Below are positions 7,565-49,125 of a stretch of DNA of 64,000 bases, in pieces; the first letter of the stretch is position 1, and each line of letters begins with the position of its first letter. The notes under the pieces were generated by a model that saw only the letters and a list, made by a program, of their open reading frames with translations, did not search any database and was not told the DNA's origin. This DNA is from Apiotrichum sp. Y4204 (taxonomy: Eukaryota; Basidiomycota; Tremellomycetes; Trichosporonales; Trichosporonaceae). The translations under genes and the position numbers were made by a program. The DNA lies in contig JAMYHL010000085.1 of NCBI GenBank assembly GCA_025531455.1, forward strand, positions 93,259 to 157,258, given 5' to 3'.

Positions 7565-9152
7565 ATGCTCGTCTCCACCGCCGCCGCCGCGCTTGCTCTC
7601 GCTGGGTCCGTCGCCGCCGCCCCGCCCATCTTGAACCTTGCCGGCTCATATGGTGAGTGCCTGCCTCCGTCCTGATCGCGAGCGCCACTCGAGCTGCGGC
7701 TCCATGACATTGGCATAGGATTTGCGCAGACCAGGATTCACAGCGGCCCCAGAACACACGCTGATCCCCCAGAGTCCAACATTAAGGTATCCGTCGAGAA
7801 TGTTGCTCAGTGCAAGGACGCGACCATTACGTGGACCGGTACCGAGGTGAGTGCCATGTTCCGTGCGATTGTGGTGCTCCGACACATGGGCAAGCTCGTA
7901 CCCCACTACTACCGGCCTTCTTCCAGCTCCTTTCTCAACCCTCTCTGCTTCTCTATTCCCGTCACTTTCTCTTCCAAAGGCGCGTTCATTGTCGAATGGC
8001 AGCTACTCATCGCTCATCGACTACCAGCCCCCCGCTCGTCCAGTGGGGGGTCGAACCCTTGGCGTGTTGCGAGAACCCTGACATCGCGCCACATCCCTTA
8101 ATTGTCTATGTCGCGCGGCTTTCCGCAGCTCGTCACTTTCCATTCATTCAGTGCACCCATGGACATGCACTAACATCATCCAGGGCGATGCCACGCTGCT
8201 GATTGGTACGGGCGGCATGTACATTGGCCCGATCAAAGAGATCCAGACGTTTGGCCCCACCTCGGCCGGCAAGCAGACCTGGAAGGTGAACCGCGCCGCG
8301 GGCTCGGACCACCTCATCTTCCAGGTTACCGACTCGAAGGGCAAGATTGGATACACGCAGGACATTTCGATTCAGTCCTCGGACGACAGCTCGTGTCTTG
8401 ACGGCGGCGGCAAGGGTTCCCAAGTAAGCGGCCCTGCACCCACCTCGACCGGAGCCACTAGCACTAGTGCTGCCGCTGAGCCAAGTGTCCAGCCTACGAG
8501 CAGTGCTGAAACGGAAACTGATCACTCCTCTCAGACTCCCTCTCAGGCCCCCACTAGCGAGAACAAGCCCGAGGCGCCCAAGACTGAAGAGCATAAGAAC
8601 GACCAGCAGAGCCAGGCGCAGACTTCGCCTGCCGGCCAGCAGCCTTCCACCGAGCAGCAGCAGCAGCCGACTAGCGAGGAGCACAAGGATGCGCACCCCA
8701 CCTCGTCCGACAAGCCTGCCGAAGCCGCCCCCGCCCCGAGCGACAAAGCTACCCCGGCGCCGGCCCCGGCCCCCGCTCCCGCCAACAACCAGGACAGCAC
8801 GACGAATAACAACGGCAACAGCCAGGCCGTCGCCCAGCCGCCCGCCAACGCGTCCGCCAAGCCGACCGAGGGCCCCGCCGGCGGTGCTGCTTCCCCGTCT
8901 GGGACGAATAAGGACGCCGCCGCCCCTAACCTCGCGACCAAGAGTGGCGACGTCGTCGTCACTTTCTCCGAGGCCGGCAAGGCTGTCACCAAGACCTTTA
9001 CCGGCCCCACCGCGTCGGCGGCTGCGGCTTCGGCCGTGGCTAGCGCCGCCAAGGCCAACACCAGCAACAGCTCGGGTAACGGCGCAGGCGCCGTCCGTCC
9101 CGCTTCGGTTGTTGTTGCGTTGGCTGCGCTCGTTGCTGCCGCCGTCTTCTAG
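7565..9152 (+). CDS. Kre9-like/Ser-Thr-rich GPI-anchored wall protein
   Basis: Three exons: 7565-7652, 7719-7846 and 8184-9152, giving 394 aa. An alternative first-intron acceptor at 7772 keeps the frame and gives 376 aa. The start MLVSTAAAALALAGSVAAA is a clear signal peptide. After it comes the basidiomycete Kre9/Knh-type N-terminal domain: a VQC/AQC-like cysteine followed by ITWTG, a variable middle, KQTWKVN, and the closing block YTQDISIQSSDDSSCL. From residue ~150 the protein is a Ser/Thr/Pro/Ala/Gln-rich stalk, probably heavily O-glycosylated. The final hydrophobic stretch (VVVALAALVAAAVF) ends at the stop, as in a GPI signal. The family acts at the cell wall or surface; Kre9 relatives are linked to beta-1,6-glucan, but this sequence does not show that activity. 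Intron 2 is unusually long for this genome (337 nt), with a textbook CTAAC branch site 10 nt before the acceptor. Confidence 0.85.
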
Positions 9153-9434: not shown

Positions 9435-12400
9435 TCACTTGATCTCCGGCAGCTCGCCGACGACGCCAATACCCGCGAAGTGTTCGGTCGGGCCGACGCT
9501 CGGGTCCTCCTCAGGTAAGGAGGGCAGCACGGGTGTGACGTTGGCAGAGTCCTCGGTTTGCCCCGACCCCGTCCGGCTCTTGACCGTCACTGTTGTGCCG
9601 CGCCCGCTGCCGCTGTGGCTCTTTACGCGACCGAGAGAAGCCTTCTCGTCGTGGAACTCGTGCATGTCCGCCGGATCGCGGTCGGGGTTCCGGTCGTAGT
9701 CGCGCAACGACCGAGCGCGCTGCAGGGCCGGCTTCTCCTCGTGCCTCGACTTCACGCTCGCGGCCGATATTGAGGTGCGGCCTGCCGAAGGGCGGAAGGG
9801 GCCACGCGACCACTTTGGGTCCACGAAGCGGCGGAGCGTCGGCGATGCAGCCAGCACGATCGGGTACAGCGCCTGAATGAAGCACATGACGACAACGAGA
9901 ATCCATGCAGTACGGATGTCGCCCGTGCGCGTGTAGATTGCCCACGTGGACGACTGCCACACGACGGCGAGGCCGATGCTCGCTGTCAGCGCTATTGAGG
10001 CGCGCTTCGTCCACCGGCCTTGACCCCGGAGCGCGGTCGCGAACAGAGTCGGAAAGACAGGGCCCTCGAAGAACAGCGCGAGGAGGACGCACACGTATGC
10101 GCCGTTTCCCTTCGGCAACACGACGGTCAACAGCGTTGTGATAAAGGTGGCGGTGCAGCAGATGTTCAGGATGAACCGCGGCGTAAAGCCGATGTAACAC
10201 ATCCCCGCTGCGATAAATCGTGATGCGGCAAACAGGCCGTGCGCGATGGTGAGGTCCCAAAATGGCCTGCGGCTAGCCGACGCCTCGGTGATCTTGATGA
10301 ACGGCGCCCAAAAGTATGAGAGAGACTCCTGAGCACCGACGTAAAACATCATGGAAACCGTGCCCGCAATGATGATAAACCAGCGTGCGGAGATGTGTCG
10401 ATTGTACGCCCGGGAACCGAGGTTGAGGCCTGCACGCTCTAACCGCCCGACCGTCTCTGCCTCGAGCTCGTCGTCGGTCGCTTCCGAGAGCGGCACGTAG
10501 AAGAAGACGAACGCGAGGAAGAGTACAAAGAGTGCGACGGCGAGGTAGCACCACTGTACGTCAAAGAGCGACACGCGTCCGCGCACGCCGACCGTGCGGA
10601 AGAAAACCTTTTCGGCGAGGATCGGTGAGACGATGCTTGCAATCGCTTGGATACCCTGCGAAAAGTTTAACCGCGCCTCGGAGAGCTCGCCGGGGCCAGC
10701 GAGAGCAATGAACGGATTCGCCGCGACTTCGAGAATGGAGAGCCCCATGGCGATGAGCAGGTTGCAGAACACGAATCCGGCAAAGGACGCGAGGACAGAG
10801 GACGGCCAGAAGCACATCGTCCCGCAGCCATAAATGACCAAACCTGTCATGAACGTCGCCTTGAATCCGTGCTTTGTAAGCGTGTACGCCCCAATGGTCG
10901 ACGGTCCGATGATGTATCCCAGCCAGTACGAGTTTTGCAGGGCCAATTGCCGTGCAGAGGTCGAGTGGGGTATAACAGTCATTATCTGGTTGTTGAGGTT
11001 ACCAAGCAGACCGTAGCTGAATCCCCACAGGAAGAAGAGGATGTTGACTACGCGTTAGCGGTGTTCCCAGGGACCACTCGTTACATACCAAACATCACAG
11101 GCCACCACGCCTCGCGCGGTGTTAGCTCGGTGAGGGGTTTCCGACGCCCGAGATCGAAGAAGTCGAAGAAGTTCTGGGTCGGCTGCTGGGTCTGGTCGAT
11201 GTGATGTGGCCCTTCGTTGGTCACCCACCGCATCGGTGCGGTGAGCATGGACCATCGCCGCATGCTGATGCGTGTTGGTGCGGAGACGAGGGGTGCGCCC
11301 ATCGTATCCGAGGATGCGGGTGATTCGTCGTTGCCGTTGCCATTGTCGGCGCCAGGGGACCGCGACTTTGACAGCCCAAGACCGAAGTGTCCAACGCCTA
11401 ATCGTGGTGATGAGGGGCCGTCGCCGCCAAACCCCGAAGCACGATTGAGCTGTCCTGGCTCTGCCGGACCAGCGGCGAAGAATTCGGCGAGATCCATACA
11501 GTCTTCCTCATTCGTGTCCGGATCGCATTGGAGTATTGCGTGAATCGGCATCTGCTGCAGAGATTTGTGCGACAGCACACTCATTTCTGGCCCCTGGCTT
11601 GGTGCCTTGCGGTGATTGTTGGGGCTATTGTTATTATTGTTGTTGTTGTTGTTGTTATTGCAGTTTCCGTTTTGCTGTCCACCCGACACGTTGCCCGAGC
11701 CGCTGTTACGGTTTCTGCTACGCAGGATTCGCGAGCCCGTCTGGCTGAAAAATGTCGAAGGCCACAGCTTCTGGAGGAATGGCTTGAGGACGAGAGCACA
11801 GCAACATGCAATGCGGACCGAGCACTCGATCGCAGCCCACATTACACCCCAGCTCGTGGACCAGTAGTAATTGGGCGGGCGATCAGACGCCGAGACATGG
11901 TCGCCTCCTGCGATGAGCTGCGCCTTTAGCGCAGTCTGGAGATATGCGATGCGAACTGAGGTCAGTGAAAGTCTTGAGGCGCTCTAGCGCGTATACCCAC
12001 CGACATCGACGACGGCAACGAAAATGCCGCACAGAAACGCCAGCACGAGGCCGATCTTGGCCGTGCGCTCTATGCGGAGCCCGGTAATGATGGGTAGGGG
12101 AAGGTAGAGGATCGCGAGGTCCGAGAGGATGTTTATCGGTGATGACGAGAGGAAGAGCGTGACCGAGTCAAAGCACTGGCCGCGACCATCCCAGGTCCAT
12201 GCTGCCGCGAGTGGTCGGCATTGCTGCACAGTAAGCAATTCACTCAGGTTCCGTGACGCACAAAGATGTTCATGAGAATGAGCACCACCCCAGAAATGTC
12301 GACGATGACGAGCACGACGTAGCTGGCATATCGCAGAAAGGTATGTGCGCGGGCCATGCGGATATAGAGAAGCAAAGCGGCAGACTTGGCCGTCATTGCG

Positions 12401-13140
12401 CTGAGGTGGTAGAAGATGGGGAACACATAGACACTTTTCTTCAGTGGGCTCCACCATTCCGGGTGTTGTCGGAGGACTAGAGTGTGAGTTCTGAGGCACA
12501 GACATTCAGCAGAGATGAGTGAGCTCACCAGTATCTGGCTGTCCGAGGCCATGCGCCGCGCCAATGATGACAGTGACAGAGAGCGCGACGGTGAAAAGCT
12601 GTGCGTGTGAGTAAGACAGCTCTTAGAAAAGGAGTGGCCGACGGGCAATCTTGGCCGAACGCCGAACACATCGTGTCAAATCGCTCTCAAAGCTGGTGAC
12701 TGCTGATAATGACCATGTTCATCTTGACATGGAGAGATAACACGCCACTGCCGGTCCCGTTGTTGCAGACTACGGGTTGCGGGCTGCTATCTGCTCCGGA
12801 GATAACCCATGAATGAATGAACAACCTGAGGTGGGCGGCGTGGTGACGTCGGCGGCGGCGGAGAGGCCTTGGCCCCCGCGGACCCCCATTAACGGCGCCC
12901 CCACAAGTCGCGGCCCATGGCCCAAAAAAGAAGTCTGGCACTCACCCAGGCTAGTATAATCACGCCGTCGTCGACGTCGGCACGTTTCCGAATGCCAAAC
13001 TTGGACACGGATCGCATGACGATGAACACTGTGGCAATTGCGAGAAAGACCGCCGAGGTTACAAGGACGCGCGGGGATCGGTTCCTGTAATGCGGCGTGT
13101 CGGCCCCGCTGGCCCCGCTGGTCCCGTCCGGCGTGTCCAT
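9435..13140 (-). CDS. Fungal rhodopsin/PTH11-like 7-TM domain fused to an FHS/FucP-type MFS transporter
   Basis: Six exons on the minus strand: 13140-12946, 12598-12529, 12476-12262, 12223-12001, 11955-11089 and 11047-9435. Phases agree at every junction and give 1,060 aa. Residues ~20-310 match the fungal rhodopsin (PTH11-like) membrane domain: a DDGVIILAW second-helix motif, GAAHGLG, the CRP...W tract after the third helix, then VVDVVRIAYLQ and W..IEC. Residues ~310-510 are a low-complexity linker with a poly-Asn run. From ~510 the sequence is a FucP/FHS-family major facilitator (VNILFFLWGFSYGLLGNLN, then ILEVAANPFIALAGPGELSEARLNFSQG), with 12 predicted helices and a ~130-aa charged tail. 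Exon 5 alone carries the end of the rhodopsin domain, the whole linker and the start of the transporter with no stop. PTH11-like proteins are putative receptors and FHS proteins carry sugars such as fucose or glucose; a combined sensor-transporter is inference. A separate transporter start at a Met in the linker cannot be excluded. Confidence 0.8.
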
Positions 13141-29746: not shown

Positions 29747-32700
29747 TTACCGCCCCCATTTCTCTCCGATCTCAGACACCTTAACCACGACAGCTGCCGC
29801 TGCGGCTCGAATGCGTCCCTCACGCGTTCCGCCGCCGCCACCTGCGCGCAGTCCATTGTTCTCAGCCTCAAATACAGATCCAGCCCATTCGCCTATCGCA
29901 AGCACCAGTTGTGGGGCGTCAGTCGCGAGGCTGCGGCCAGTGTCGAGGTCGACGGAAGCATCCAAGACCGCGAGAGAAAGTTCGAGGGCTGAGCCTGTCA
30001 CCTGGGCATCGGCACCTTCTGTGTCTGGTTGGGCCAGATGTCTGGCACCCACGGTGACAGCCAGTTCCAGAACCGACGGAGCAAGTACAGCAAGGAACGT
30101 CGGTGCGTGGCGTGCAGCATGTGCCAGGAGAGCGAGTGTGAGGAGAAACTTGTCGAGCGCGGTGGGGCTGAGCACCAGACCTGTGCCTGCCCCGCGGAAT
30201 CGAGCTCCAAGAGTCACCGCGCGCGACTCCCGTACACTTGCATCCTGGAAGTAGTTCCAGAAGTGATTGATGAGGGGAAGGATGAAGTATTCTGCTGCCA
30301 CCGACGTGTACGGCACCACTGGGTCTTGTTGGGGTGTTGGGGCGTCCTTGTCGTCCACATCCATGCTGTCCAGTGCCACAGCCGTCGATCCGACCTTGCG
30401 CCGCTTGGATGTCACGCGCAGCCGGCGCTCTCGAGCAATCTCGGGTACAGCTTCTGCACGCTCAGCACCTTTGGCAAGCAGCAGGCTGCGCATGCCAGCC
30501 ACGGCGTCTTCCAACTGTGGCCCAAACGTGTCGCCTGCCGTGATGTACTTGTTATGCAGCGCAGCCGGAAGTGTCTTGGTGGGAAAGTCGATGCGGCGGT
30601 TCACGCGAGGCTCGGGTGCAGGCAGACCTGCGAGCTCGCGGGCGCCCATTGCGAGAGCCGTGAGCATGACACTCTTTTGGTGAAGACCATATGTCGACGA
30701 GAAATACTGTTCGGCGAGGAATCTGGTATCAGGTCTCATTCCACTCAATTGCACTCACGGTGGCACCTCGCGCGGTGCACAAGCAACGAGCGCCGTGACC
30801 AGCCCTTGCCGGCGTGTCTCAAAGTCGTCGAGATTGAAGGGGTTGGCCAACGCAATGGCTGCTGCCGCCACAGCAACCGCATTCTCGCTGACCTCGGTGC
30901 CAAAGTTGCGCTTTGCACGAATAAGGCCCTCGCCCCACTGAAGGGCGAGCTCAATGCTGTCAGGCTTCTCCTTGTCCCGCAGGAGCTCTGCGACTTGACG
31001 GACGTAAACTGGGCGTTTGAGAGCCCGCTTCTTCGTGGCATCCAAGGCGAGCGAAGGATCTGCCGCCACCTCGTCCAGGAACTCGGGTGTCGGCGACGGA
31101 GAACGGGACGAGGAAGGCGAAGACGTGTAACCTGATAGCGGGTCCGCGGCCTGGTCGTCATTGAGCATCACAATCATTGGTTTCTTCGCTTGGGGCTTCT
31201 TCTTCGTCTGCGCTGGGCGCGGCTGCCGCCGGGCTTGGGGCTCAGGCTTCGGTTCCGGTACCTCCGGCACTGGGACGTCCCATCCCAGCATCCAGGCGGA
31301 GGCGTTGTCCGAGAGCACGGCATCGGCATCCTTGACCCCCACACAGCTGCGGAGCCACCGTGCCTCTTCCCTCCCGTCCCCGCTTCCATCCCACATGTCG
31401 GTGAAACGTAGTCTTCGCGGTCCGCGTAACGGCTTAGGTTCTGCGCGTTTCGGCTCCCCGGTCTCCTCATCTACTTCGAGCTTGGCCTTTAGCTCCTCCA
31501 GCTCGTCATCTGGAGGAGCAGTATCACTCGTCTCGGCGATGGTCCGTTCCGAGACCACTTCTGCAACGAGCATACCCAGCCTACGCAGTTTGGCATCAGG
31601 ATGTGAGAGAAAGGCCTGAATGGCCTGGATGAACCGCGATCGCCGGGACATTTCGACGAGCCGGGAGTCCATTGGCGGGAGCAGTGAGATGGAAAGAAGA
31701 AGCGTATGGGTCAGATCTGGTGTCAGTTGAATTTCGGCGTCCGACTCACTAAATTGTTGGGCATATGTGCCAAACCGAATATGAGTTGGATCAGACCACG
31801 CGTCAAGCGTCCTGTCAATGAGCGATGTGGCAGCTGGCGTCAGCATGAAGTGCACAATATTCCCACTCACCGCTCCTGCCTCCAGTCGCAGTCCACGCGA
31901 CGACCATCCTCCGAGCAGCAGCCTGAGGCTGGTCCCTGTCTGTGCCCGCGTTCTTCTTCAGCAATGGGAGGAGAACGGCACTCCATGCCTCCCCCGTCGG
32001 CTCGCCAAGGAAGAGGCCGAGTACTTTCGCCGCACGACGAACACGCTCTTCCGGGCGGGTGGGGTCAAGATCTGGCGGTGCCAGACGGAACGGTAAATAG
32101 GTGAAGAGGGCGGTACCAACACGTCCAAGAACCGAGAGGGGAAGGGGGTTGAACAGGGAAGGGAAGAATGTTGGAGGATACGGCGGCGCGATTGCTGGTG
32201 GGTGGAGATGCTCCAGAGCGCGCGGAAGAAAGCCAGGGAAAAGCGCCGGCTGCCGGCCCGATGTGGGAGGTGCATCGAGCAGGCCGAGTGCCGTGAGCTT
32301 TTCAATAACAACGTGTAATGCGCGTCTCTGAGCCGCCGAAGTGGAGTGCGAAAGCGCGATCTCGTAGCTCATGCTTTCGAAGCGCTGGGCCAAAAGATCA
32401 AAGTATGCCCGTGGAACGAGGATCGCAGGCACATCTCCCGCCCATCCACCCTCCTTCCATCTCCCGGCAGCATTGGCCACCTTGACCGGCACGCCCGCTG
32501 CGGTGCGGACTGCCTCCTCCCATGCAAGAGCTGCAGGCGCTTCATCTGCCCCAAGGCCCCACACGATGGAGTACAGCCTGTCAATTCCATATGTTGTGAC
32601 CACGTCAGCAAGAGTCGTGAGCACAAAGTCGCGTGCTCCCGGAGACAGCGGCGGCGCAGGTGCCAGCGCGCCCGTCAGCGTTAGGTAGGCTGCCAGGGCG

Positions 32701-34082: not shown

Positions 34083-36017
34083 CTAGGAGCGACGACGCTG
34101 CGACATCTCGACATCGTACACTCCGTGCTGCGACTCGCCATGAGAGCCGTCATAGCCGGTCGTGTCGTACATGGGGTATGTGTCGTAACCAGCGTACTGG
34201 TTCTGGTTCTGGTACTGATACGTTTGAGGTCCTCGCCGTGTGTCGTACAGTCCTGTTTCAGAACCACCGGTGGGATTCGGTTGCACAGGAGGAGCTGCCT
34301 CGACAGGGGTCTTCTCGTTCTGCATGGCGGTGGTAGCAGTGGCGGCTGCGGAGTTAGTCGATTGATGAAGGGTGAGCCAGTCCACAGTAGTACTCACGGT
34401 CTCCGATACCCGAGCGAGTTCCCCATCCAGTCTTGTGAAGAGTGAAAAGAGCGTAGAGCTTCATGATAGCGAAGTAGTAGCCGAACAGAATGAAGACGGG
34501 AACGTAAATAATGTCCTGGGGGCGAGACCAAAGATGGGGAAGGACCTTGAGAGTACGGGTGCAGAGCAACCAGACGAGGTAGGAGACGACAACAACCCAG
34601 GCTTTCAAGTGGTAACCGCCCTGCGTCGTCTTGACAATGAGGTAGATGACAAGACAGGGACCGACGAGCAAAGTCAACGGGTTGATGAACTTATCCAGCA
34701 TGGTGTAACAGACGTAAGGGTGCTTGGTCCACACGTAGCGCTCGGTGAAGACAGAGCGGAAGTCTGAACGCCAAGTGTTACGGGTCCAACGCAGAACCTG
34801 TTTAAGGAAGCGCCAGTTGGGTTTCATGGTGGAGAGAAGCTCGGCCTCGTGGCACACCTGAACATAGGTGTTCCAACCATGAGAAACCATCCAACGAGTG
34901 AGGAACTTGTCGTCGCCTGAGTTGAGGTGATACTTGCCCAGCCAAAGGTCGTTGGTAAAGCCGTGAAGGAAGTCGGGGTCCTTGAGAATAATAGTACGGT
35001 ACGCCGCAGTACGTCCCGAAAGACACGGGATACCGCCGTCGATGTGAGTCGACGAAGCAATTTCAATGTTGCGGATAGTGAGACGGAAAGCAGCAAGAAC
35101 CTCCCAAACAGTCATTGTGGGACCGCAAGGTTTGACACGCTGTGAAGTACCAACACCACCAACCTGCTGGTCCTCGAAACAGGCAAGAACGTAAGGAAGG
35201 AGCTGAGGAGGCCAGATAGCATCGTCGTCGGCGAACACGATGATGTCCGTCGTGGTATGGCGGATGCCATGGGCCATTTGAAGACGTTTGTTGGCGAAGG
35301 GCACTGTCAAAACGCGAATACGCGTGGGGTCGACACTGTTGGCCAGCTCCTGCAGAGGGCCCTTCATTTTCTCTTCGGTGACGATAATAATCTCCTTGGG
35401 CTTTCCGACGAGCCACGAGAAGGCAGCCTCTGGGCATGGTCAGCCTGACCGAAAAACAAGTGCAAGGAGATGCGTACCGCGGAACTCCTCTCCGGCGTCG
35501 ATCGTCGGGACAATAATAGTCACATCGTCCTCAGCATGGTCTGGGCGTTTAGTAACAGAACACTGTGAAGACATTGCCTTGATTACTTACAAGACGGTGT
35601 CTCTGGTAGGGGAATTGGGCGATACACGTAGCGCGCAATCAAACGAATAATGTACCACAGGTAGCGGTAAAATCTGGATAGGTCAGTAAGCGATCAGAGC
35701 GCAATTCGTAGATGGCTGCCAACGCTCTTCGGAGTTTTCCAAAGAGGCGGTGTCGGAGAGAACCACCAAACCTAGGAAACATACCCGATGACGCCGAACG
35801 GAACGACTGGATGTGTTAGTAAACTGGAGCTACAGAACTGAGGTGGTTTCACTTACAAACCGGGAACTTGTCGGCGGTTAGATCTGAAGCAGTGTCAGCT
35901 AGAAAGTTGAGGGTGACCGTTGGTTCCCATCAAGAAGCCTCGGCGGGGAGTACTACGTGCCCTACCCGGGCATGGTTTGCGATTCGCGATGGCGCGAACT
36001 GCCTACGTACAAAGCAT
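34083..36017 (-). CDS. CPS1: Family 2 glycosyltransferase, Cps1/hyaluronan-synthase-like polysaccharide synthase
   Basis: Seven exons on the minus strand: 36017-36011, 35883-35857, 35806-35785, 35673-35591, 35540-35478, 35429-34398 and 34345-34083, for 498 aa. Residues ~1-40 hold an N-terminal hydrophobic segment and a basic YRYLWYIIRLIARYVYR stretch. The catalytic GT2 core starts at DDVTIIVPTID; the nucleotide-binding and metal motif is ADDD (~134-137), the acceptor-side motif is GDD (~239-241), and QVLRW (~278-282) is the QxxRW signature of processive synthases. Several membrane helices follow, and the last exon encodes a Tyr/Gln/Asn-rich cytosolic tail. Cryptococcus Cps1 is linked to hyaluronic acid synthesis at the plasma membrane; the product here is inferred from that. 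The first coding exon is only 7 nt. Confidence 0.9.
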
Positions 36018-43778: not shown

Positions 43779-45819
43779 TCACGTCAAGTTGGGCTGGATG
43801 CCGAGCAGGACCGCGTCCCAATCAGCATCCCAAGCCAGTCCAGAAAATTGCTGATCACCTATCGCCGAGTTGGTGTTCAAAGGTGTACTCATCGCGCCGG
43901 CCAGCAGTGGGAACCCATCCCAGAACACTTGGTGCTCTGGCGCCAGCGGCTCCTGGTACGCGAATTGTCCCTGCCGTCAGGATCGGTTCATGCTACAAAC
44001 ACTCACCACTTCATCCCACCACTGATCCGGTGTGGTCTTTTGCTGCACTGAGGGTGAGAGGTCCAACACGCGAGTCGGAGTCGGGGCTCGCGACTGGTGA
44101 GCTTTATCGAGAACCGCGTGAATAAACCGGGCAAGATATGCCGGATGAGACTGTTGATCACCGCGGGCAGCTTCGCGGCAGACAATAACAACTGCCATCA
44201 GCAAGGGTCAAAACACTCCAGAACTTCAGCTTCCTCACCTTTCGTCAACTTCCGGAGCACATCTGCTTTGGCAGATGTATCCAAGTAGGACATGAAGCGG
44301 ATCAGACGAACGACAGTGGACGCCACCGCGACTGAGTGCGCATCCTCGATCATGGGCATGATGCCCTTCCGTGCAAATCCATCCACGACGACATCCAGCA
44401 GGTCGAGACTCGTAGAGACGCATGCGTGGAGAAGACCAATTCGATGCTTCCGCGGGGCAAAGGAAAGTGATGTGCACTCGACGAGCAGCTGTGTTGCCAA
44501 CGTGCTAAACTTGTTGATGCTCACAGACGTCGAGGTCAGTTTCACTGGATAGTCATCTGAGCTCAAATCCTGATGCGAGCGATGGAGATCTTCAACCACG
44601 CGGCGCAACCCGGAACGAAGGATCTCGTACTGTCCCTTGCAGCTTTGCAGCTGCCGGACCTGAGAGCTGAGCAAACTTGTCTTGACAGCAAAGTCCAACT
44701 GCCCATCCGAGGGCAGCGGGTAAGGTATGTCGCGAATCCAGGCCGACGCGTCGGGCGGCAGATGCATCATCGACGGTCGGTCAGAGAGCTGTGTCATGGT
44801 GGAGTCGAAACAGAAGAGGGATATCCATGTTCGCTCGCGATCAATTGCCAGCCGCGCCGACCTCTCGTCTTCTGGAAGCTTGCCCCTTCGGGGAAGGTGG
44901 AGATCCAATTGATAGCCCAGCCGGATCGCATGTCCCAGTCGAAGCCAGCCGCGACCGTCGGTGGGCTTTTTCCAGTAGTGTAGAAGACATATCGCCTGCA
45001 CGACCTCGATAGCGCAGACACAATCCGCTATCGCCTGGTTCACAAGACGATTTGCCACCGCCAAGAGTGTTTCATAAAGTTCTGGCCGGAAAAAGTTTGA
45101 CGCCACCGTCAGCACGGCGGTGAACAGCTGGAGCGAAGAGTCACGAGTGTAACTCGCAGTGTGTATCGCCGGATCCAGGAGACAAACACATGTTTGCAAC
45201 TGATCAAAGTAGTGCCCGAATAGCGAGTCGCATTCCGCCATGGACAGCAAGCCAAGGGCAATGGGATCGTTCCCGGGAGTGACCGCCGGCGCAGGAACGC
45301 CATGCCCATTCGGCTCCATAACCCCAGCAATTGAGAAAACAGAGCGATCGGCGACATCGTGATACACCGAGTTCGCCGGCGGAGCTTGCGGCTGGTCCTG
45401 GTCGTCCGAGCCGCTTTCCGACGACGACTTGTAGTATCGCATGTTGGACACCGGCGTCGTCAGGGATGCCAAAGACGCAGAATCAGTGTCGCGCCTCCGT
45501 TTTGGTGGTCGCGGAGATGTTCCGGGAATCGAAACATCCTTCCGTCTCCGACCGCGTTGGTGGGCTTGGTAGACGCATTCAATGTCCAGTCGCGTGCAGC
45601 GCTTGCAACGAGTGGAACCGGTTTCCTCCACACATTTGCACTTGAGATTAGTCCTGTCCTACCCCGTCGGATCTTGTCGCTCACCTTGGCACTCCGGCAA
45701 GCCGTGCAGCTCCTGAATGTCAACGTCTTCCCTCCACTCATGACCCACACTTTGTTCTCTCCGGTCTCCGTCTTTGGTGCCCGACGCGTCGGGTTTGATG
45801 GTCCTGCTATTGTCTCCAT
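43779..45819 (-). CDS. Zn(II)2Cys6 transcription factor with fungal-specific regulatory domain
   Basis: Four exons on the minus strand: 45819-45685, 45640-44239, 44191-44007 and 43970-43779, for 637 aa. The binuclear cluster is C38-x2-C41-x6-C48-x8-C57-x2-C60-x6-C67, split by the first intron after SAK, and is followed by a basic GRRRK stretch. The middle-homology region includes WLRLGHAIRLGYQLDLHLPRRG, typical of the Fungal_trans domain. The C-terminus ends in an acidic/aromatic segment (LAWDADWDAVLLGI) of activation-domain type. It sits tail to tail with the ribokinase. The candidate operator between ribokinase and transporter, and a related site in its own promoter, suggest it controls the module and itself. 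The ligand is unknown; a sugar is inferred from context. Confidence 0.88.
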
Positions 45820-46219: not shown

Positions 46220-49125
46220 TTACAAGAAGTTGGCCTCCTGAAGGCGCCTTGCTTCGGCGCGCACCTTGCCGTCCCAGTGAGTTTGTGCGAGCGTGTCGAG
46301 CTCGTACAAGCTCGTCGTAAACGGATTGGTAAGCTGCGGGTCGTCCATGTCTGGGCGGTACACGCCGTCAAACATGCGCTCCTCGGTGTCAAGAAGGTTG
46401 GCAAGCTTGGGCTCCTTGGCAGCGAGGCGGCGAACAAAGTTGACTGCGTCGCGTGCAGTAGCCGGAGGGAAGGTGAGCGCACATTCACACATACGCTTCG
46501 CAAAGGCTGCTGTGCGAAGTGGCGGCATCTGGCGGCCAAAGTAGCGGGGGAAGAAGATTGCGTCGAGGCAGCGGAAGAGGAGCCCGGCTGTGGACAGTGT
46601 GTGAGCCGGTGGTCGGTCCGCCGTGGCGCGGGAGGCACCTGCCCGACGCTGCCTGGCGGCAGCGGCAGCGGTCGCCTCAGTGAGGTCCGGGGGGTCCTCG
46701 ATGGAAGTGTCGACTGCAAGTGGGCGCAATAGTCCAAAAAGCTCGGTGACAAAGTCCGCGAGGTCAATGTTGAGCGACTCGCCCTGACCAGACAGCAGGT
46801 CAAAGGCAGTGACAATAGCAAGCATTCGAATGCGCACACGCGCACCAGCACCAACAGGATCCAGGGTGTCAATGTCCTCGTCCTCGTCATCGTGCGCCTT
46901 GCGGTCCGCAATAATCTTGCGTAGGACCTGGAGGAGATCGCGGAAGAAGTCGACGTTGATCAACTGCGTAAAGTGCGAGATGCCCTCCAACGCAGCGGGG
47001 AGTAGTGGCGACCTGCCGGGGAACTTGAGGATGGAGAAATAGAGAACGAAGAGATTTTTCAATGTCTCCGTTTGCTACCCTGTCAGCCACATGTCCAGAC
47101 TTGCACTCACAGTTTGAGCTCGCTCCTCAAGATCAACCTCGGCTTCAGCCTCTGCCATCTCCTTGCGGATTTCCTTCATCTCCTTCTCCCTCTTCTTTTG
47201 ATTCTTCGTCTGCCACTTCTTGCGGACTTCCGACTTGTACTTCTTCTCCACCTTGTCCTCATGGCGGTTGCGCTGGTGCTTCTTGCCATCACGCATCTTG
47301 TCGAGTTCGGTACGTAGACGAAGGTGCAGGAGACAGGATAGCACATTGGGATGCACTTGGAATTTGCGCTCCTTGATCATGCGCGCAATGAGGCGAACCA
47401 GAGCCTGCGAGTAGGTCGCCGCCAGATCCATGCGGAAGACTGCCACAAAGGTGTTGAGAATAAGTTCGCTATCCTCATCCCACGACCGGCGACCAATCCG
47501 CGCGACGAGCACTGCCATGATGTTCTCGCTAAAGTTAAAGTGCGGCACGGCAGCAAGCAGCTCGCAGAGAGACTTCAGCGCGACCTTGGAGAGCGGCGTC
47601 TTGCCTGAGGTGTAAGAAAAGCTGTTCTCATGGTGACTCCGTCCCACCATACTCACGCTTGACTTCAGCCTCAAGAATTTTGAGGAAGGCCTTGTAGTTC
47701 CGGACGAGCATTTTCTCGCCTTCACGCATGCGGCGTACCTCGTCACGGACCTTCTCCGCTTCCTCCTGTGCGGTCAATTGGCGGATACGGTATCCTGGAA
47801 TCAAGTCCTTGTAGACCGCCAACTGAGAGAGAATCGCCAGGGCGCGGATCGAGTTCGGCACCGGCAGTGTGCTTTTGTCGCTTTCGGAATCGGGGTTGGG
47901 GACCGTGGGAAGCGCCCATGTTGAGAGACGGGTGATGATGGGCCCAACGTCGACCAGCTCGCCACCAGCAAGGATCTGGGCACCGATCTCTGCCATCTGC
48001 TCCTGAGCTGCGGCAAGTCGCTGCGCATTCTTCCAACCTTTGGCAGCGACAATCTCGCCAACGTTCATGCGTCCAAACCGGCCAGGCTGTCCGGCCATAC
48101 GTGCAGCCTCAACGCCTGTGTCGCTCGCCTCGGATTCCGACTCGCTCTCAGTCTCTGGTGCGGCCGGACGGACTGGCTGCTTCTTCGGCTGTGGCACAGC
48201 AATCCGTGTCGAGCCCTGCACGAGCTTGACCTCGCCACTGGGAAGCTTGATTGGCAGGCGGCCAACCTCCACTTCGGTTTTGTCCTGCTCCTCGTCCTCC
48301 TGCTCAGCCCACCGAGCCCGACCGGCGACTTCATACTCGGCTTCCTCCTCTCGCTTTTTCCGTTTTCGCGGCGCCTCGTCCTCGGTGTCGGCGTCGGAAG
48401 CAGTAATGTCGTCAAACTCCGCGTTAAGCACGGACTGGTTTGAGTCGTTACTGCCGTCGCTGTCGTCATCCGAGCCAAGTCCGGACCCGATGTCCGAATC
48501 CAAATCCTCATCATCGCCATCGACCTCCAAGTCGTCATCCGAAAAGTCCACCTCGGAGTCAAAGTCGTAGTCGGAAATATCAGACGCACTCGGCGGAGAC
48601 GGCTCGCGCTTCTTCGACACAGGCATGGTGTTCCGCGCCTTCTCAAGTTCGTGGATACGCTTGGTCTCCTTGACAGTCCTTAAACAGTTAGCCTACTTCA
48701 AACAGCAGGACTCACCTTGACAGTGTCGCAGGTTCAAGGCTGGCGAGGAAACCACCGGCGTTTCCTACCTCAAATCCCTCCTCTTCTCCAAGGTCCTGCA
48801 TACCGTCGCTATCGCTATCATTGTCGCCTGCAAACGCGGTACGCGGAACGGGAATGAACTTCTGATCGCGCAGCTTGACCTTCTTTGGCTGATCGGGTCG
48901 CCGTTTCGGCTTGCCTGTCGGACCGAGCTCGGGGCCATTGGTCTCCTTCTCCTTGCCCTTGCCCTTCGGGGCAGGCTTACCAGCTTTTGCGGGCTTGGCT
49001 TTCTTCGGTGCCTGTCGTCAGTTTGACTGGAAAGCATACCTTCCGCGACGCGAGACACTCACCCCGCCTGATGGGCCAGAAGGAGCTTTGCGCTTCCCGA
49101 GCGCCTTTCCTGATGGACGTCCCAT
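46220..49125 (-). CDS. NOC3: Nucleolar complex protein 3 (Noc3/FAD24 family)
   Basis: Five exons on the minus strand: 49125-49063, 49011-48716, 48678-47657, 47604-47111 and 47074-46220, for 909 aa. The N-terminal third is Lys-rich, then acidic (SDISDYDFDSEVDFSDDDLEVDGDDED), as in many ribosome-assembly factors. The conserved NOC3p domain starts near PGYRIRQLTAQEEAEKVRDEVRRMREGEKMLVRNYKAFL and continues through KTPLSKVALKSLCELLAAVPHFNF. A basic coiled coil (QTKNQKKREKEMKEI) is followed by the CBF/Mak21-like C-terminal region with ETLKNLFVLYFSILK and LLFRCLDAIFFPRYFGRQMP. Noc3 acts with Noc2 in 60S pre-ribosome export and has been tied to replication licensing in yeast. The first two exons, missed by a single-exon view, supply the start. 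Divergent from the SNARE gene by 483 bp. Confidence 0.9.

Follow-up and report, generated by a model that had tools for sequence, protein, structure and literature searches.

A PTH11-class seven-helix domain and a FucP-type permease in one predicted fungal protein: a candidate single-chain nutrient sensor

Introduction

The known PTH11-class (class XIV) receptors are stand-alone proteins of about seven helices and, in the accessible text of three surveys, are described only from Pezizomycotina (PMC1088943, PMC5526305, PMC12842992). Kulkarni and others also found the class only there, with none in three basidiomycetes, according to the accessible part of their paper (PMC1088943). The FucP/FHS symporters, represented by the structures 3o7p and 3o7q and by the family TIGR00885, are sugar carriers. 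Here we analyze a gene of the yeast Apiotrichum sp. Y4204 that lies in a window of 64,000 nucleotides of contig JAMYHL010000085.1 (gene positions are relative to this window). Its predicted product carries a PTH11-class domain, a linker and a FucP/FHS-type permease in one chain. It differs from the known PTH11-class receptors in the 12-helix permease behind the domain, in having no detected CFEM domain, which is present in a subset of the class, and in its basidiomycete host. It differs from the FucP/FHS symporters in being fused behind a receptor-like domain, in two replaced transport residues (Asp46 to Gly and Asn162 to Gln), and in a score below the curated fucP cut-off.

Gap1 is a nutrient transceptor, and Snf3/Rgt2 are glucose sensors that do not carry glucose. 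To our knowledge, Pho84, Gap1 and Snf3/Rgt2 are single carrier domains, with no seven-helix receptor domain in the chain. The idea that the window protein may share with yeast Pho84 is that of a carrier-fold protein that also signals (accessible text of PMC3824880). The oomycete G protein-coupled receptor (GPCR)-bigrams (GPCR-PIPK and others) resemble it in having an N-terminal seven-helix receptor domain and a second functional domain in each chain. In the accessible text on bigrams the partners are catalytic, whereas the partner here is a 12-helix transporter, so the catalytic domain that marks a bigram is absent (PMC6033456). Neither "transporter" nor "12 transmembrane" is used in the main text of that paper.

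Results

One reading frame and a selected linker

The gene was spliced in silico into a single frame of 1,060 amino acids (aa) with one terminal stop (Table 1). This agrees with an earlier reading made from the sequence alone (the sequence-only reading) in coordinates, length and exon joins, all of which are predicted. All five introns are GT-AG and of matching phase, as had been claimed. The claim that exon 5 (11955-11089) contains the last receptor helix, the linker and the start of the transporter also holds: the exon is free of stops from upstream of that helix, across the linker and into transporter helix 1. The phase of intron 5 fits, and the unspliced reading meets a stop immediately inside it, so removal of intron 5 is required to join the halves. 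The linker had been called Asn-rich. This is correct for a single run of 11 Asn (residues 334-344), and the label is mainly limited to that run.

The 48.9-Mb genome contains two copies of the locus, C167 (the window) and C35, with a DNA identity of 95.2%. The frame and the stop are intact in the C35 copy, as is every splice site; the copies also show a single in-frame difference of one residue. Between the copies, synonymous and nonsynonymous changes number 22 and 3 in the seven-helix half, 17 and 2 in the linker, 2 and 0 in a juxta-transporter block described below, 39 and 1 in the permease, and 7 and 1 in the tail. The ratio of nonsynonymous to synonymous rates (dN/dS) of the linker is about 0.03, and the chance of two or fewer nonsynonymous changes among 19 is 1e-8 at p = 0.74. 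Thus, the linker is under selection as protein. Exons of the two copies are 96.9-98.6% identical, and introns 1 to 5 are 95.3, 96.2, 89.5, 84.4 and 78.0% identical. Since introns 1 and 2 are almost as similar as the exons, the argument rests on the codon pattern and not on an intron contrast. Paired loci were seen across the assembly (C167/C35, C173/C122, C153/C57), as in a diploid or hybrid yeast.

Relatives with the same two halves

Homology searches covered proteins that shared five-residue words with the query and were 0.55-1.75 times as long. About 8,000 candidates were scored in each of the full-length and permease-half searches, and the domain counts refer to the 120 rows listed for each. 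The full-length search gave 303 relatives. In the best 120, both Pfam domains were present in 111, only the MFS domain in 6 and only PF20684 in 3. The sequence-only reading knew PTH11-like proteins and FHS transporters only as separate proteins. It turned out that the joined form is widespread in public databases, and Fung_rhodopsin and MFS domains together, for which that reading had proposed a search of fungal proteomes, occur in these 111. It had also allowed that the halves might always be separate genes in relatives; they are joined in the listed rows just counted, and the search with the seven-helix half gave no annotated separate protein. A fusion unique to this genome is ruled out by the same rows. 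The closest named relatives among the matches listed belong to Cutaneotrichosporon and Vanrija (52-55% identity). The fused set comprises 34 proteins from Tremellomycetes and 64 from the ascomycete Pezizomycotina (five of the host placements were looked up). Five distinct fused proteins of Saitozyma podzolica occur among the matches listed (P0018, P0019, P0026, P0034, P0039), which suggests that the family has expanded in some lineages.

The search with the seven-helix half, whose reach ends short of distant stand-alone PTH11 proteins of Pezizomycotina, gave 28 matches of 184-513 aa. All of them are metagenome pieces, and none comes from ncbi, uniref or nr. The transporter junction is reached by 24 of the 28; the other four (P0228, P0235, P0236, P0238) show neither break nor continuation. 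Twenty-one (17 by pattern, 4 by eye) traverse the linker up to the position of intron 5 and then pass into unrelated letters, as an unspliced reading would, and three (P0215, P0230, P0231) cross the junction into the transporter in one frame. Seven of the 28 lie on contigs of the same size as that of a permease-half row and are probably intron-split. The permease-half search gave 465 relatives, of which the best 120 are listed, and PF20684 is missing in 60 of these. Eleven of the 60 keep the linker block upstream of helix 1. Two have an ncbi source: P0158, considered in the Discussion, and P0195, a 619-aa protein that starts within the seventh helix and includes the linker and the block. Some short contigs hold an entire fused frame (for example P0113, with 872 aa on 2,805 bases) and may be transcripts.

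In the genome of Apiotrichum sp. Y4204, a PF20684 profile search matched only this gene and its copy. A recent fusion of a local PTH11 gene is ruled out, as that search found no further PF20684 match. The frame kept in C35, the selection on the linker, and the metagenome pieces that reach or cross the junction led us to reject two neighboring genes. Taken on its sequence evidence, the locus almost certainly encodes a single conserved fused protein.

Domains and predicted fold

The first half matches Pfam PF20684 (Fung_rhodopsin, PTH11 class) at residues 42-297 with E 1.2e-47 and 162.8 bits against a cut-off of 27, over the full profile (1-237). No CFEM domain was matched in the window protein at E <= 1, and about 22 residues precede the first hydrophobic helix. 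The best sequence match of the second half is to the FucP/FHS group: NCBIfam TIGR00885 (fucP) gave E 2.3e-25 and 89.6 bits, which does not reach the curated cut-off of 280.4 bits, and the solved FucP structure 3o7q gave E 3e-15. Pfam MFS_1 did not match the window protein at E <= 1; it is present in 117 of the 120 listed relatives. Because of the score below the fucP cut-off and the missing MFS_1 match, the label "fucose carrier" is unwarranted.

A structure model of the relative P0001 (83 sequences, pTM 0.76) has seven helices and an extra one behind them; the linker is disordered, the stretch directly before the transporter is ordered, and 12 helices follow. The best fold match of its permease half is 3o7p (TMt 0.79, E 5.9e-12). 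The rhodopsin/PTH11-like domain, the FucP/FHS-type transporter and the total of about 19 helices suggested by the sequence-only reading are thus supported by the Pfam match, the FucP match and this model. Charge counts in the seven-helix half are compatible with the N-terminus outside and the linker inside, as in PTH11-class receptors; those of the permease are mixed. The predicted topology is 7 + 12 helices with the N-terminus out and the linker and C-terminal tail in. For a second model, P0213 (seven-helix part and linker; 37 sequences, pTM 0.71), GPCRs dominate the best rows of the fold comparison. Kinship of the seven-helix fold with GPCRs, as judged from matches between helical bundles, is likely rather than established.

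Substrate and proton sites of the permease half

According to the accessible text of one paper, Asp46 of FucP is believed to be essential for proton-driven transport, and Glu135 possibly takes part in substrate recognition (PMC3824880). Another describes Asp46, in its accessible part, as the putative H+ site (PMC4882079). The equivalent of Glu135 is present in all 98 fused rows and in all 80 bacterial stand-alone rows, and the AANPF that follows it is preserved in the window protein. The equivalent of Asp46 is lost in 71 of the 98 fused relatives, namely in all 34 from Tremellomycetes (Gly 29, Val 3, Ser 2) and in 37 of the 64 from Ascomycota (Asp 27, Asn 34, Thr 2, Ala 1). A stand-alone paralogue in the same genome, L003, has Asp. 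On the permease tree, stand-alone rows included, the Asp or not-Asp state requires at least six changes. At the Asn162 site, Gln is found in 93 of the 98 fused rows; all 80 bacterial rows have Asn there. This pattern suits a permease half in which binding would be kept and proton coupling relaxed in many lineages, that of the window included.

A bacterial FHS subgroup (L061, L062 and others) has Pro at the Asp46 site in 25 of the 80 rows, which rules out Asp46 loss as a mark of the fused family only. Loss of Tyr365 was dropped as a marker, since all 80 bacterial rows also have Phe there.

Linker motifs and shared history of the halves

A juxta-transporter block, [FY]F[DG]F followed mostly by VNM or similar, stands ahead of the helix-1 pattern in 85 of the 91 proteins scored, and in 83 the distance is exactly 30 residues; shuffled sequences would give 0.8. 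The pattern was drawn up after inspection of the sequences. The block is absent in the seven stand-alone rows inspected, two of them copies from the same genome and five bacterial; the own-genome reading ends 12 residues upstream and may miss an exon. A looser mid-linker motif was found in 44 of 91 against 2.8 expected. A search with a 27-residue helix-1 probe gave no match.

The permease tree was built from 51 fused and 10 stand-alone rows. All fused halves fall on one side of a branch with a support of 100 by the Shimodaira-Hasegawa-like approximate likelihood ratio test (SH-aLRT); Tremellomycetes are supported at 99 and Ascomycota at 74. In the seven-helix tree the split between the two groups is supported at 98. 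Distances in the two trees correlate with r 0.84 (the largest of 1,000 shuffles is 0.25), and 24 of 48 splits are common. These results fit a single fusion that predates the radiations of both groups, or one early transfer. With Ascomycota held together at just 74 in the permease tree, the fusion may have arisen before the two phyla separated or may have spread by such a transfer.

Feature coordinates and neighboring genes

Table 1. Positions of the gene, its predicted exons and introns, and its main sites in the window
Feature	Position	Strand	Basis
Entire gene with six predicted exons and one frame of 1,060 aa	9435..13140	-	in silico splicing, single terminal stop; frame and splice sites preserved in the second genomic copy
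Exon 1: N-terminus and first receptor-like helices	12946..13140	-	predicted splicing
Intron 1, 347 b, GT-AG	12599..12945	-	predicted splicing; second genomic copy
Exon 2	12529..12598	-	predicted splicing
Intron 2, 52 b, GT-AG	12477..12528	-	predicted splicing; second genomic copy
Exon 3	12262..12476	-	predicted splicing
Intron 3, 38 b, GT-AG	12224..12261	-	predicted splicing; second genomic copy
Exon 4, containing the conserved third cytosolic loop LPLPIITGLRIERTAK (12103-12056)	12001..12223	-	predicted splicing, loop conservation
Intron 4, 45 b, GT-AG	11956..12000	-	predicted splicing; second genomic copy
Exon 5: last receptor-like helix, whole linker, start of transporter helix 1	11089..11955	-	predicted splicing
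Run of 11 Asn in the linker, residues 334-344	11627..11659	-	sequence
Juxta-transporter block FFDFFDLGRRKPLTEL, fixed spacing ahead of transporter helix 1	11123..11170	-	pattern conservation
Intron 5, 41 b, GT-AG, at the junction of the halves	11048..11088	-	predicted splicing; 21 metagenome pieces end at the same position
Exon 6: FucP/FHS-type 12-helix transporter and C-terminal tail	9435..11047	-	sequence and fold matches
Residue 539 Gly, replaces FucP Asp46 (proton-coupling residue)	11001..11003	-	alignment
Residue 630 Glu, corresponds to FucP Glu135 (substrate recognition)	10728..10730	-	alignment; 98/98 fused relatives
Residue 657 Gln, replaces FucP Asn162	10647..10649	-	alignment

The convergent neighbor at 8082-9149 (+) is a Ser/Thr/Asn/Pro-rich frame with a hydrophobic end, which resembles a GPI-anchored wall protein and has no Pfam match. 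Further genes in the window are a Tel2-like gene with a Telomere_reg-2 (PF10193) match at 30758-31957 (-), a frame with a family 2 glycosyltransferase domain (PF13641, E 6.6e-32) at 34357-35439 (-), a fungal-specific transcription factor domain (PF04082) after a Cys-rich start at 44201-45658 (-), and a Noc3-like gene at 46223-48692 (-) with CBF/Mak21 and NOC3p matches in adjacent frames.

Discussion

The PTH11-class and FucP-type halves may together form a single-chain nutrient sensor, or transceptor; from the sequence evidence we regard this as a serious possibility, at somewhat less than an even chance. That sensing would run through the permease half is a proposal we make with a shade less confidence. 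The permease half would bind a sugar-like solute, with a hexose or deoxyhexose as a first guess from the kinship with FucP. Binding would move transporter helix 1, and the juxta-transporter block, with its fixed spacing, would relay this movement to the seven-helix half, which would pass the bound state to intracellular signaling. The conserved third cytosolic loop would engage a G protein or another partner. With 3.39 bits it exceeds every other loop of the seven-helix half in conservation, and inner loops average 2.85 bits against 2.04 for outer loops (p 3e-4). In proteins that have lost Asp46, any remaining transport would run without proton coupling, or transport would be abolished, which would suit sensing better than bulk uptake.

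Several observations weigh against this proposal. Cytosolic loops 1 and 2 (2.36 and 2.43 bits) are no better conserved than outer loops 1 and 2 (2.28 and 2.52), and the contrast between inner and outer loops is due to the third loop on each side, well conserved in the cytosol and poorly outside. In the fold comparison of the seven-helix model, a designed GPCR-like bundle scores 16.5, and similar values are reached by an unrelated designed helical filament (15.7), by adiponectin receptors (15.6) and by microbial rhodopsins (about 14); Foldseek on this model gave no match at E <= 0.001. The Asp46 site of the bacterial stand-alone rows is Asp in 53, Pro in 25, Gly in one and a gap in one, so Asp46 is also missing outside the fused family; the 27 ascomycete relatives that keep Asp are possibly ordinary symporters. 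The very strong selection on the permease (one nonsynonymous change in 40) is equally expected of a working carrier. Co-inheritance of the halves is evidence of one history and not of coupling or interaction. Finally, the other 49 of the 60 permease-half rows that miss PF20684 start at or after helix 1 and are not distinguishable from stand-alone permeases, although in many the distance to helix 1 is at most 20 residues, as expected of pieces cut at intron 5. One of them, the annotated protein P0158 of Saitozyma podzolica (359 aa), begins after helix 1 and may be incomplete.

It is possible, though in our view unlikely, that the protein is a working sugar carrier whose seven-helix half serves in trafficking, dimerization or stability and does not signal. 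The invariant Glu135, the permease as the part most strongly selected between the copies, and the proton-coupling Asp retained in part of the ascomycete relatives would all fit such a carrier. By the precedent of FucP, however, the loss of Asp46 in all tremellomycete and more than half of the ascomycete relatives would impair proton-driven uptake, and a passive anchor has no obvious need of a third cytosolic loop so well conserved.

Less likely still is the reversed direction, in which the seven-helix half would be the sensor, for a ligand outside, and would act directly on the joined transporter by gating or sorting it. The anatomy is the same, the fixed-spacing block could gate helix 1, and the accessible text on oomycete GPCR-bigrams proposes that these couple a receptor with an effector domain of its own (PMC6033456). 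A receptor for an outside ligand fits poorly with the lower mean conservation of the outer loops compared with the cytosolic ones, outer loop 2 excepted (a buried pocket lies outside this comparison), and there is no ligand candidate. Two separate proteins, produced from a linker that hides a promoter, a poly(A) site or an internal start and joined as an annotation would join them, are very improbable: the halves do meet at an intron, the exon joins are predictions, and 49 of the 120 listed permease-half rows begin at or after helix 1, but the linker is selected in a kept frame with a conserved fixed-spacing block inside it, independent annotations make the identical join, and P0215, P0230 and P0231 cross it.

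The sequences of the fused proteins are public, under names such as "Rhodopsin domain-containing protein" and "fucose permease", yet they appear to be undescribed as a family as far as the literature was searched. That search, mostly of papers open without subscription, found no description of a receptor-transporter fusion. According to their accessible text, the 2017 survey selected a seven-helix topology (PMC5526305), and the 2025 survey selected 6-7 helices and matches covering >75% of both proteins (PMC12842992). By such filters a chain of 19 helices would be excluded, and the P0001 model, with 7 + 12 helices, exceeds a total of seven.

With more reserve than for the nutrient sensor itself, we suggest that the fused family may be a new receptor class: an old single-chain receptor-transporter of Tremellomycetes and Pezizomycotina that GPCR censuses missed because of its 19 helices. 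A carrier without proton coupling would have been turned into the ligand-binding head of a PTH11-type receptor, which would give this yeast a built-in sugar sensor as the sole PTH11-type receptor found in its genome. Most fungal GPCRs are orphans whose ligands are unidentified, as stated in the accessible text of PMC13308352. How a transporter signals has long been asked in work on nutrient sensing. A permanent chain of permease and receptor would tie one candidate ligand class, that of the permease, to one receptor, so that both questions become directly testable. The fused family contradicts the statement that PTH11-class domains occur only in Pezizomycotina, and it draws attention to a filter by which published GPCR surveys would miss such proteins.

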